Part shown: positions 30,655 through 34,814 of the stretch, piece by piece
How positions within the stretch are numbered: the first letter of the stretch is position 1
How the letters are laid out: every line of letters starts with the position of its first letter
Notes under the pieces: model-generated
Database searches by the model: none
Told to the model about the DNA's origin: nothing
The model's input: only the letters and a program-made list of their open reading frames with translations
From: Natrialba taiwanensis DSM 12281
Lineage (GTDB): Archaea > Halobacteriota > Halobacteria > Halobacteriales > Natrialbaceae
Assembly (NCBI RefSeq): GCF_000337595.1
Contig: NZ_AOIL01000050.1
Span: forward strand, 135,588-199,587
DNA: 64,000 nucleotides
Direction: 5' to 3'
Position numbers and translations under genes: made by a program

Positions 30655-30693
30655 ACAGTCCCGTTCGGTGGGAGGTCCTTCCCACTATCCCAA

Positions 30694-30713
30694 ACTCAAA
30701 GCCGTCTTTGAGT
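30694..30713. promoter_or_regulatory. palindromic operator, copy 1 (upstream of lipoprotein gene)
   Basis: A perfect inverted repeat ACTCAAAG, 4 bases, CTTTGAGT. It is 40 bases upstream of the lipoprotein ATG and just upstream of a TATA-like GGATAGTG element (minus strand, about 30682-30689). An identical copy lies before the regulator gene at 31429-31448. A smaller inverted repeat GTGGGA/TCCCAC sits between this operator and the start. Confidence 0.8.
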
Positions 30714-30739
30714 CCCGTTCGTCGCTCGAATTCTTCCGG

Positions 30740-31381
30740 TCACTCGCCGACAGCGGCTTGTCGCCGCGTCGCCGGTCGATACCGCATCCAGTACCAGTAG
30801 CCAACCCAACACCCGATCGCGAACAGTCCGGCCGCGAGCACGAACCCGCCGGGCCCGGTTGCGAACTCGAGAAGCGACTCGCGAAGCGTCGGCTCGGGTG
30901 GCTGTGCGGTACTGAGCAGCCTCGGCTGTGCCGGCCGGGGCGCGTTCCACCGCGTATGAACGAGCGCACTCACGAGACCCACGAACACGCTCGCACCGAG
31001 CACTCGCTGCAGTGCACCCGAAAGCGACGGCGTCGTCTGCTCGGCCCCAGTATACAGAACCAGCGGACCGTTCGCCGGCGCATAGACATCCATCTCCCGT
31101 CCCTGGCTCGAGTACCACGTCCCGGCAACGACGATCAGATCCGCTTCGACAAGCCGCTCGAGATGATAGCTGACGTTCTGCACCGAGGCGTCCATGCGAT
31201 CGGCGATATCCGACGCCGTCTGTGGCTCCTCGTAGAGCATCGCGAGAATCGTCCGCGCCGTCGTCGACGAGACGGATGACAGTATGTGCTCGGCTTCCGT
31301 CTCGGTGAACTCGACGAGTTTCGGCTCGGTTTCGCGGTCGTCCAATGCCGATGATGGTTTCAGCGGAAAGAGAGAGCTCAT
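30740..31381 (-). CDS. winged-helix (ArsR-like) membrane-bound transcription regulator
   Basis: 213 residues. After a 25-residue leader comes a winged-helix domain: EFTETEAEHILSSVSSTTARTILAMLYEEPQTASDIADRMDASVQNVSYHLERLVEADLIVV (about residues 25-87), where VQNVSYHLERL is the recognition helix. The C-terminal half has two hydrophobic segments (about 127-145 and 172-195) that would place the regulator in the membrane. The 20-bp palindrome at 31429-31448, just upstream of its TATA box, suggests autoregulation; the same palindrome precedes the lipoprotein gene. It may sense an envelope signal. Confidence 0.82.
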   Translation of the reverse strand: MSSLFPLKPSSALDDRETEPKLVEFTETEAEHILSSVSSTTARTILAMLYEEPQTASDIADRMDASVQNVSYHLERLVEADLIVVAGTWYSSQGREMDVYAPANGPLVLYTGAEQTTPSLSGALQRVLGASVFVGLVSALVHTRWNAPRPAQPRLLSTAQPPEPTLRESLLEFATGPGGFVLAAGLFAIGCWVGYWYWMRYRPATRRQAAVGE

Positions 31382-31409
31382 CGTACCTACAGTCTCGTTT
31401 CCACCGGGG

Positions 31410-31418
31410 TGATATATT
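31410..31418 (-). promoter_or_regulatory. TATA box of winged-helix regulator gene
   Basis: AATATATC (minus strand) lies about 30 bases before the ATG at 31381, near the spacing expected for a leaderless or short-leader transcript. The palindrome at 31429-31448 begins about 11 bases further upstream. Confidence 0.65.
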
Positions 31419-31428
31419 CGTACGTGAA

Positions 31429-31448
31429 ACTCAAAGATTCCTTTGAGT
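31429..31448. promoter_or_regulatory. palindromic operator, copy 2 (upstream of regulator gene)
   Basis: ACTCAAAG, 4 bases (ATTC), CTTTGAGT: the arms are identical to copy 1 at 30694-30713 and only the 4-base spacer differs. Its position just upstream of the regulator's TATA box suggests binding by the regulator itself, either as activator or as an upstream-acting repressor. Confidence 0.8.
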
Positions 31449-31535: not shown

Positions 31536-33095
31536 CTATTCCGCGAACGATTCGGAATCCGGCGTGGGGTCGGGTTCTGCGTCCGTTTCCGCTGCTGTTC
31601 CCGCTTTCGATTCCGTCCCCGTTTCCGCTTCGCGTTCCGGGCCGACCGTCCCCGCCTCGCCTGCAGTCGCTGACGCGGCGTCCGTGGAGTCAGTTTCGCT
31701 CGTTTCGTCGACGATCGACTCCGTCCAGGTCCCGCGGGTAAACCACGCAGTCGCCGCGATCGCGCCGACGATGTCGCCGATAACGACACCGGCCCAGATG
31801 CCCGTCGGGCCCCAATCGAGGACGAAGGCAAGGATGTAGGTAACGGGGACGCGGACGGCCCACAGGCCGAAGACGGCGAACGCGAGTGCAGTCTTCGTGT
31901 TCCCCGCGCCGCGGAACGCACCCTGAACCACCTGCATGACGCCCATGAAGACGAATGCGACCGCGGAGAACCGCAGGTAGGTCACGCCGTAGTCGATCGT
32001 CGCCGCCCGTCCTTCCGCCTCCGCCATCAGGAACACCGAGACGAACGGTTCCGGCAGCAAGAACGCGAGCACGCCCGCCACGAACATGATCGATCCGATC
32101 ACCCCCGCAGCGATCCAGACGGCCCGCTTTGCGCGATCCGCCATCCCTGCACCCAGGTTCTGGCCGACGATCGAGTCCGTCGCCTGCCCCATACCGAGCG
32201 CCGGCAGGAACGCGAGCGATACCAGTCGGTTCCCGAGCCCATAGGCGGTGACGACTTCGGACGGAAACGTGACGACGATCGCCATCATCGCAACCAGCGC
32301 AAGCGCCGTCATCGACTGCTCGAGAGCCGTCGGAACGCCCAATCGCGTAATCTCGCGAACATACTCGAGTCGCGGCCGAATATGCGACGCCTTGATCGCC
32401 GGTCCGGTGTCCGTATAGTACAGCAGGTAAAATCCGATGACCGTCGCAATAGCGCGCGAGATGACCGTCGCGACAGCCGCTCCCTGAACCTCGAGCCGCG
32501 GGAGCGGGCCGACGCCGAAGATAAGCAGCGGGTCGATTGCAACGTTGATGACGACGCTGATGAACATCACTCGCATCGGCGCGCGCGTGTTCCCGTAGCC
32601 GCGCATGAGCGCGACGAAGACGAAGAAGCCGAATACGGACGGTAATCCGAGGAAGAATACCTCCAGGTACTCCGCGGCGAGCGGGATGATCGCCGCCTCG
32701 GTGTCGGGATCGGACGGCAACGCGGCGAGCATCGGATCGCTCAGTAGATACCCGAGGATACCGAGTCCGACCGCGACAAGCGAAATAAACGACAGCGTTT
32801 GCCCGGCGATGATCCCGTCCTCGTCGCTGTCGGCCCCCGTGTGCTGGGCGATCAGGATCGCTCCGGCGGTCGTAAACCCGCTTCCGACCGCAATCAGCAA
32901 GAAGAGCAGCGGAAACGCGAGGCTCACCGCACCGACGGCGTCGGGCGAGAGCGTCCCGAGCCACAGCGTGTCGCCGACGTTGTAGGCGACCTGCAACAGT
33001 TGAATAACGACGAGCGGCCAGGCCAACCTGAACATCGGTCGGACGAGTTCACCTTCGGTAAGGGAGTTCTCGTCCGCCGTCGCGCCAGCGGACAT
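31536..33095 (-). CDS. MATE-family multidrug/metabolite efflux transporter
   Basis: 519 residues with twelve predicted membrane helices in two homologous halves. It has the NorM/DinF features: LAWPLVVIQLLQVAYNVGDTLWLG at the start, GSGFTTAGAILIAQHTGA, FFVFVALMRGYGNTRAPM and QGAFRGAGNTKTAL, the two halves of the conserved RGxGxTxxP-type motif. It exports cationic compounds using a sodium or proton gradient. An acidic tail of about 70 residues (ETSETDSTDAASATAGEAG...) is disordered. The start at 33095 (MSAGATADENSL) is chosen because upstream residues look like non-coding DNA. Divergent from MTA phosphorylase. Confidence 0.92.
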   Translation of the reverse strand: MSAGATADENSLTEGELVRPMFRLAWPLVVIQLLQVAYNVGDTLWLGTLSPDAVGAVSLAFPLLFLLIAVGSGFTTAGAILIAQHTGADSDEDGIIAGQTLSFISLVAVGLGILGYLLSDPMLAALPSDPDTEAAIIPLAAEYLEVFFLGLPSVFGFFVFVALMRGYGNTRAPMRVMFISVVINVAIDPLLIFGVGPLPRLEVQGAAVATVISRAIATVIGFYLLYYTDTGPAIKASHIRPRLEYVREITRLGVPTALEQSMTALALVAMMAIVVTFPSEVVTAYGLGNRLVSLAFLPALGMGQATDSIVGQNLGAGMADRAKRAVWIAAGVIGSIMFVAGVLAFLLPEPFVSVFLMAEAEGRAATIDYGVTYLRFSAVAFVFMGVMQVVQGAFRGAGNTKTALAFAVFGLWAVRVPVTYILAFVLDWGPTGIWAGVVIGDIVGAIAATAWFTRGTWTESIVDETSETDSTDAASATAGEAGTVGPEREAETGTESKAGTAAETDAEPDPTPDSESFAE

Positions 33096-33231
33096 ATCCG
33101 CACAGTGTCGGGCGGCGTACTTGACCACTCGGGAGATGTGGTACCGTATTGCACTCGACGGTGAGAGCGCCGGGCATGTGTGCAACCGAGAATCCGGACC
33201 GTTTACGGTGCTCCTCCGACGATCCTCGGCC

Positions 33232-34092
33232 ATGACGATCGGAGTTATCGGCGGCAGCGGTATCTACGAGGCGCTCCCGCTCGAGAACACGCGCACGGAG
33301 ACCGTCACCACGCCCTACGGCGACCCCAGCGACGACGTGACGCTGGGTGAACTCGCCGGCAAGGAGGTGGCGTTCCTGCCGCGCCACGGTGAGGACCATC
33401 AGCACACGCCGACCGACGCGCAGTACCGGGCGAACATTTACGCCCTCAAATCGGTCGGCGTCGACCGCGTCATTTCGACGAACGCGGTCGGCAGCCTCCG
33501 CGAGGACCTGCCGCCCCAGACGCTCGTCGTTCCGGATCAGATCTTCGATCGGACGAAACACCGCTCGCCGACGTTCTTCGGCGACGGTATCGTCGTCCAC
33601 ATGGGCTTTGCCGAACCGTACTGTCCCGAGATGGTCGAGCACCTCGCCGATGCGGCCGCAGCGGTGGCCGATGCGGAGACGAAGACGGAGCGGGGTGGCA
33701 CCTACGTCTGCATCGAGGGTCCACAGTACTCCACGCGAGCGGAGAGCGAGTTCTATCGCTCGCAGGGGTGGGACGTGGTCGGTATGACGACGATTCCGGA
33801 GGCCAAACTCGCCCGCGAGGCCGAACTGAGCTACGCGACGGTCGCGGGGATAACTGACTACGACGTCTGGAAGCAGGACAACGAGGTGACGCTCGAGGAA
33901 GTCCTCGAGAACGCCGCGGCGAATCAGGACTCGATCAACGCCGTGATCGAACGCGCGATTCGAACGATGCCCGAGGACTTCGAAAGCGACGCCTGGAGTG
34001 CACTCGAGGGGACGATCAACACGCCGACGGAGGCTATTCCCGACGAGACGCGCGAACGCGTGGATCTGCTGGCCGGTGAGTACCTCGACTAA
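33232..34092 (+). CDS. S-methyl-5'-thioadenosine phosphorylase family protein
   Basis: 286 residues of the purine nucleoside phosphorylase fold: IGVIGGSGIYEA at the N-terminus (phosphate site), FLPRHGEDHQHTP, VISTNAVGSLREDL, the signature YVCIEGPQYSTRAESEFYRSQGWDVVGMTTIPEAKLARE (purine and ribose site), and DYDVWK. It would phosphorolyse methylthioadenosine from polyamine and methionine metabolism, giving adenine and methylthioribose-1-phosphate. A GTTTACGG TATA-like element about 28 bases before ATG 33232 fits leaderless transcription. Confidence 0.93.
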   Translation: MTIGVIGGSGIYEALPLENTRTETVTTPYGDPSDDVTLGELAGKEVAFLPRHGEDHQHTPTDAQYRANIYALKSVGVDRVISTNAVGSLREDLPPQTLVVPDQIFDRTKHRSPTFFGDGIVVHMGFAEPYCPEMVEHLADAAAAVADAETKTERGGTYVCIEGPQYSTRAESEFYRSQGWDVVGMTTIPEAKLAREAELSYATVAGITDYDVWKQDNEVTLEEVLENAAANQDSINAVIERAIRTMPEDFESDAWSALEGTINTPTEAIPDETRERVDLLAGEYLD

Positions 34093-34188: not shown

Positions 34189-34814
34189 ATGAGCCACGAT
34201 TCCGAGTGCCGCTTTCGCCCGACAGACGGTTCGGCCAGTCAAGCGCATGCCAGTATGACAGCCACTCCGTCCGCCCCAGACCACTCGCTGCCGCTTGAGA
34301 CCCCGCTTTCCCCTCGAAAGCGCGACACACTGCAATTCCTTCTCGATACTGACGGCCCCGTCACGATCCGTGCCGTAACGGACCACGTGGCAGCCACGGA
34401 ACACGAAACCGCTCCAACATCCCTCTCCGCCGATCAGCGGCAACCGGTCTACGTCGCCCTCTACCAGTCGCTGCTCCCTGAACTCGACGACGCAGACATC
34501 GTCGAGTACAACAAAGCTCGCGGAACCGTTCGCTTGACGGCCGACCGCGCGGCTGTCGAGTCCGTCCTCGAGTTCACGGAGAGCGAGCCCGAGCCAACGA
34601 GCGCGGGACGGACGAGCAGACAGGGACTGCAACTGCGACCGAGAAAACGGCGGTGAACGCAGGCAATGAGTCGTCGAATATCGTCGCCGAGGGAACCGTG
34701 AGTCTATTCGGAATCGCATCGCTTGGATTGCTCGCGTCGCCCGCTCTTACGGCCAGCAGCACCGTCATTGCGACGGTCGCGCTGGCAGTGGCTGTCGTGA
34801 GTCAACTCGCTTGA
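34189..34814 (+). pseudogene. DUF7344-type wHTH membrane protein, frameshifted
   Basis: The frame from ATG 34189 encodes a DUF7344-like winged-helix domain: ETPLSPRKRDTLQFLLDTDGPVTIRAVTDHVAATE...SLSADQRQPVYVALYQSLLPELDDADIVEYNKARGTVRLT. It ends at 34656 in an Arg-rich tail, while another frame continues sensibly through TDEQTGTATATEKTAVNAGNESSNIVAEGTVSLFGIASLGLLASPALTASSTVIATVALAVAVVSQLA to the TGA at 34812. Such C-terminal transmembrane pairs are usual for this family. Inserting one base near the GGG at about 34607 rejoins the frames. An alternative start is ATG 34255. A TATA box AAATATAAT lies near 34138-34146. Confidence 0.78.

Follow-up and report, generated by a model that had tools for sequence, protein, structure and literature searches.

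A membrane-anchored winged-helix regulator and the adjacent Tat lipoprotein of Natrialba likely form a self-contained two-gene haloarchaeal cassette, in which the regulator would bind the promoters of both genes at the palindrome GACTCAAAG-N4-CTTTGAGTC and would act mainly as an activator. The locus lies within the 64,000-nucleotide stretch of DNA that was analysed (the window), and this reading is drawn from comparison of the locus with other haloarchaeal genomes at the sequence level. A local regulon had been proposed for the locus in a preliminary description, and this was supported by the finding that the regulator, the lipoprotein and both palindromes are kept together across haloarchaea and the flanking genes are not.

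The palindrome ACTCAAAG-N4-CTTTGAGT occurred twice at the locus, and as described earlier the 8-nt arms of the two copies were perfect and identical while their N4 spacers differed. On the minus strand the order was MATE transporter gene, operator R, regulator gene, operator L and lipoprotein gene (Table 1). Operator R was separated from the regulator ATG (31381) by 47 nt, and operator L from the lipoprotein ATG (30654) by 39 nt. A TATA-like element had been described after each palindrome; this held for the regulator promoter (ATATAT) but not for the Natrialba lipoprotein promoter, where only GGGATAG was present and no TATA was found at the matching place. Searching the window with up to 3 mismatches returned exactly these 2 palindromes, with dinucleotide shuffles giving a mean of 0.09. 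When the 4.64-Mb Natrialba genome was searched with up to 2 mismatches, the two locus palindromes were recovered together with one 2-mismatch site (L003) inside coding sequence, and the reversed-pattern control gave 1 match. The perfect palindrome was present in 2 copies in this genome, and the many random copies genome-wide that would have spoken against a local regulon were not observed. In the aligned promoter series the Natrialba copies were the most symmetric.

Table 1. Predicted features of the regulator-lipoprotein locus and nearby genes, in window coordinates.
Feature	Position	Strand	Description
MATE transporter gene	31536-33233	-	
Operator R, palindromic, regulator gene	31429-31448	.	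ACTCAAAG-ATTC-CTTTGAGT; kept in 31 non-redundant regulator promoters
TATA-like element, regulator promoter (ATATAT)	31411-31418	-	at a constant distance from operator R, 11-17 nt past the palindrome
Membrane-anchored winged-helix regulator, 213 aa	30740-31381	-	wHTH ~28-102, TM1 ~120-145, short loop, TM2 ~177-200
Operator L, palindromic, lipoprotein gene	30694-30713	.	ACTCAAAG-CCGT-CTTTGAGT; kept in 36 non-redundant lipoprotein promoters, weak in a few
GGGATAG box	30685-30691	-	adjoins operator L; shared among lipoprotein promoters (TCTGGGATAG)
Tat-type lipoprotein, 324 aa	29680-30654	-	starts MERR...AAGC; an FxCN...STxMAC cysteine motif in each of its two beta domains; META-like
Small membrane protein, 92 aa	29376-29654	-	directly after the lipoprotein gene; adjoins it only in Natrialba
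DUF7344 haloarchaeal protein	34189-34656	+	Pfam 1.8e-19; close to the cassette but with no relation to it

Conservation of the site was assessed in promoters from other genomes. The 5' end of the palindrome lay ~60-68 nt before the ATG in 31 regulator promoters and ~60-63 nt before it in 36 lipoprotein promoters. Each promoter was scored by its match to the 18 specified positions of GACTCAAAGN4CTTTGAGTC; a score of at least 15/18 was reached by 29 of the 31 regulator and 31 of the 36 lipoprotein promoters, and the top score in shuffled promoters (n=4000) was 14/18, reached once. Weak lipoprotein sites were seen in two Natrialba species, N. chahannaoensis (L049) and G047 (L048), and also at L067. 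Mean information for regulator and lipoprotein promoters respectively was 1.51 and 1.65 bits in the arms, 0.45 and 0.98 bits in the N4 spacer and 0.09 and 0.22 bits in the upstream background. In 71-90% of regulator promoters an ATA followed the 22-bp core at 12-14 nt, and it recurred in lipoprotein promoters, which share TCTGGGATAG between the palindrome core and the ATA. Where the Natrialba lipoprotein promoter has no TATA, most other genera carried GATAC or GATG. The resulting consensus was GGACTCAAAGACGTCTTTGAATCTGGGATAGGACGATAC for lipoprotein promoters and GGATTCAAACACCTCTTTGAGTCTTCCNTAG-CACATA for regulator promoters. There was no obvious Shine-Dalgarno sequence and leaderless mRNAs were therefore assumed.

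The two genes were also conserved as a pair. In a pattern scan of public genomes the lipoprotein gene lay directly after the regulator gene in 20/20 named regulator relatives, and the pair was present in at least ten genera (Natrialba, Natrinema, Halorubrum, Halorhabdus, Halomicrobium, Halobacterium, Halobellus, Haloprofundus, Halovenus and Halosimplex). With presence of the two genes called at cut-offs of E <= 1e-40 and 1e-20, the 392 genomes of the order divided into 37 with both genes, 1 with the regulator only, 7 with the lipoprotein only and 347 with neither (Fisher 1e-43, genomes counted as independent). The genes that flank the pair in Natrialba (MATE transporter, phosphorylase, phosphoribosyltransferase and small membrane protein) were absent beside it outside the genus, which makes the pair itself the conserved unit.

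The palindrome followed the regulator. Among the 125 genomes of the family it was found at up to 1 mismatch in 10, comprising 8/8 genomes with a regulator orthologue and 2 of the 117 others (Fisher 4e-11, genomes counted as independent), and in the 8 with a regulator it was always at the regulator-lipoprotein locus. The reversed control pattern matched in 5 of the 125 genomes. No palindrome was found in the Natrialba species that lack the regulator (G045, G046). Sites were also kept where the pair was broken up: in G178 the regulator and lipoprotein were on separate contigs, each with a site, the second lipoprotein of G272, located 13.6 kb away, had kept its site, and unlinked lipoproteins in G288 and G412 carried sites as well. 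In genus g70, where the pair has diverged (38-42% regulator identity across the alignment), GACTCAAAGGCGCGTTTGAGCC was still present before the lipoprotein gene, and in G182, whose only regulator is a distant one, the site could still be recognised. Three genomes with a lipoprotein and no close regulator (G029, G030 and G033) carried an altered site at the same place, CTGAAA-N6-TTTGACC, which resembled and did not equal the local paralogue's own palindrome, and in G419 a lipoprotein was present with no palindrome site at its promoter and no close regulator. This altered site and the missing site in G419 indicate that the lipoprotein can be controlled otherwise. In genus g11, lipoproteins without a close regulator (L136-L138) also had their site at -60; it read CTGAAA-N6-TTTGACC(C), with GGGG-AGAGGTTTAT behind it, and the altered site in this genus possibly reflects rewiring to another regulator. 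A relaxed pattern, GAYTCAAAN5YTTTGARTC, searched in 32 genomes gave few off-locus matches, mostly with 2 mismatches and near the control level. Good sites in each genome were mostly confined to the regulator and lipoprotein genes. A larger regulon was considered and rejected, as the extra matches in the Natrialba genome fell inside coding sequence or were not near a matching gene.

The N-terminal winged helix of the regulator matched Pfam HTH_20 (5.1e-14) and the ArsR family (6.5e-8), and its nearest solved folds were the archaeal ArsR homologue PH1932 and P. furiosus Phr (ArsR-type). Hydropathy indicated two C-terminal hydrophobic segments, and the AF2 model, which was of moderate quality (pLDDT 74.5, pTM 0.46), placed helices at 120-145 and 177-211. 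About 17 residues separate the wHTH from TM1, and the loop between the TM helices is roughly 20-30 residues. The combination of a DNA-binding domain and predicted membrane helices in one chain is that of the transmembrane transcription regulators (TTRs). No Pfam match to a HAMP domain was found in the regulator. The HVO_1552_C domain (PF24267) scored 26.0 bits on the window regulator against a gathering cut-off of 27, and matched 26/31 of its orthologues at E <= 0.001 (best 1.2e-12). Close relatives of the genome were N. aegyptia (regulator 97% identity) and N. asiatica (95%). No papers on HVO_1552 were found in the literature searched.

The N-terminus of the lipoprotein contained a twin-arginine motif and a lipobox. 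Pfam META (PF03724) matched it at 6.7e-7 and 29.7 bits (gathering 24), with the best stretch covering only profile positions 40-71 of 109, and the domain was matched by 28/32 lipoprotein homologues at E <= 0.01. The AF2 model of the lipoprotein had a pLDDT of 82. Foldseek returned weak beta-sandwich matches only (PepT extracellular domain, transthyretin), a PDB sequence search gave no match, and no paper that brought together the META domain, haloarchaea and lipoproteins was found in the literature searched.

A universal paralogue, 42-51% identical to the regulator, provided a further comparison. Its recognition helix reads SIQNVRYHL as compared to SVQNVSYHL in the regulator, and its promoter carried a different palindrome at the same position, with the AAA-N6-TTT spacing shared and the outer bases different, as in GGTAAAATCGCTCTTTCAC, and with GGAAA and TATA coming next. 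Two subfamilies with two recognition helices and two own-promoter palindromes provide the best indirect support that these proteins may bind these sites. A second, unrelated Tat-lipoprotein family (L154-L183, for example G000:C70:125194-125877) had AAA-N6-TTTYAS ~60 nt upstream in 28/30 genomes, an arrangement obtained in 8 of 9000 shuffles, and the universal HVO_1552-type paralogue is likely to target this family. Matches to the paralogue pattern at L123, L125, L130 and L131 were in coding sequence and looked like chance. Palindromes of related type were also seen before other genes. In the distant genomes G107 and G182 (L042:1500-2298, L108:1466-2273) a near-perfect GACTCAAA...TTTGAG lay ~50-64 nt before an exported SIMPL/DUF541 gene (Pfam 8e-40 and 1e-40), in genus g70 (L095:1944-2735, L096:2010-2771) GACTCAAATCG(NNN)TTTGACTC lay 60-63 nt before another RR-lipobox lipoprotein gene, and in G084 (L041:1500-2696) a one-mismatch palindrome lay 60 nt before a third type of membrane HTH regulator.

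From these data we infer that the regulator, rather than another factor, binds the palindrome. The binder would be a winged-helix protein of ArsR/HTH_20 type, tethered to the membrane and probably a member of the HVO_1552 family; most likely as a dimer, it would occupy GACTCAAAG-N4-CTTTGAGTC in its own promoter and in that of the adjacent Tat lipoprotein. Held beneath the membrane, the wHTH dimer would touch a pair of half-sites spaced by about one helical turn, immediately upstream of the presumed BRE/TATA, and the site would function mainly as an upstream activating sequence that recruits TBP/TFB, giving positive autoregulation. The lipoprotein would then be the output of the circuit and, more speculatively, might report the state of the envelope back through the membrane helices.

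Within this model we lean towards activation with positive autoregulation because the GvpE UAS, which activates, shares the 8-N4-8 layout adjacent to the BRE, and the ArnR boxes are also upstream of the BRE. The sign is nevertheless uncertain, as ArsR-type proteins often repress and the site is close enough to the BRE to block TFB. The membrane regulator could instead repress itself and the lipoprotein until an envelope signal releases it, a serious alternative that we rate as less probable. Autorepression is common, the wHTH resembles ArsR/SmtB repressors and Phr in both fold and sequence, and the presumed BRE lies just downstream of the operator's end. Against repression, both sites are upstream of BRE/TATA with fixed spacing to TATA, which is the placement used by archaeal activators (GvpE UAS, ArnR boxes), and the absence of a good TATA in the Natrialba lipoprotein promoter fits dependence on an activator.

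It is improbable that a different, cytoplasmic regulator binds the palindrome and that the membrane protein is merely among its targets. The site without a close regulator in G182 and the different palindrome at the same place before the G029, G030 and G033 lipoproteins would fit such a factor, but the palindrome follows the regulator across genomes and is missing from the congeners without it, the cassette and its sites change neighbours as one unit, and the paralogue subfamily carries at its own promoter a palindrome that differs correspondingly. A role of the palindromes in RNA, as hairpin or terminator, or an origin as a mobile repeat rather than as protein-binding sites, is very improbable. 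A perfect inverted repeat could fold as a short hairpin, and operator L is between the regulator stop and the lipoprotein start; however, the sites are ~40 nt before the ATGs and upstream of the presumed TATA, so transcription from these promoters probably does not include them, they are not followed by a T tract, the arm sequence is conserved rather than pairing alone, and the genome holds only two copies. That two short palindromes are alike by chance is hardly credible: a single genome taken by itself offers only two copies, but 0.09 were expected per window at 3 mismatches and the same position is kept in many genera.

Together these data make it very probable that the cassette works at the cell surface as a small, self-contained control circuit. 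In the literature searched no conserved cassette of an archaeal regulator and a lipoprotein, with its operator defined, was found, and to our knowledge operators or targets are known for very few archaeal transcription factors tethered to the membrane. The HVO_1552-type family hereby gains a predicted operator, two predicted targets and a putative difference in subfamily specificity (NVSYHL/CTCAAA vs NVRYHL). More tentatively, and with rather less than even expectation, HVO_1552-type regulators might make up a class of archaeal signalling proteins, every subfamily having a private AAA-N6-TTT palindrome and one Tat lipoprotein to go with it; that lipoprotein would be both output and external sensor, in a counterpart of ToxR/ToxS envelope monitoring. 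The paralogue-type site before the second Tat-lipoprotein gene supports this view. Haloarchaea have no outer membrane. If true, the circuit would show how haloarchaea may link surface lipoproteins to transcription.

Membrane-bound one-component regulators are known and widespread (PMC10269533). The co-component systems ToxR/ToxS and VtrA/VtrC (PMC9214523) resemble the cassette in having the gene of a membrane-tethered transcription factor directly followed by that of a same-strand exported partner in a fast-evolving cassette, and an exported partner was downstream at 20/20 of the named regulator loci. In those systems the partner is lipocalin-like and the periplasmic region sizeable, whereas the cassette regulator is almost without an extracytoplasmic domain and its partner is a Tat lipoprotein with two beta domains and its own promoter and operator, not a lipocalin. 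The UAS of the haloarchaeal activator GvpE (PMC4390858) is likewise a 20-nt element of two 8-nt parts with 4 unimportant nt between them, adjacent to the BRE. This 8-N4-8 layout by the BRE was found at the cassette sites, where BRE/TATA are inferred; GvpE itself is a soluble leucine-zipper-like protein with another element sequence, unlike the winged-helix membrane protein of the cassette. The membrane-bound one-component activators ArnR and ArnR1 of Sulfolobus acidocaldarius are also archaeal, with an N-terminal HTH and two C-terminal membrane helices, and their inverted-repeat boxes are placed like the cassette palindromes, upstream of the BRE/TATA of a surface-structure gene (PMC6396743). 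Homology between ArnR and the cassette regulator is shown for the HTH only; ArnR has a HAMP and a sensor domain between the HTH and the helices where the cassette regulator has neither and only a short loop, and its boxes are TCGAC-N5-GTCGA at the archaellum promoter as compared to GACTCAAAG-N4-CTTTGAGTC at the lipoprotein gene and the regulator's own promoter. The universal paralogue of the HVO_1552 type differs from the cassette regulator in its recognition helix, a longer loop and its palindrome, and the HVO_1552 family (PF24267) appears to share with the cassette regulator the wHTH combined with a C-terminal two-helix membrane domain.
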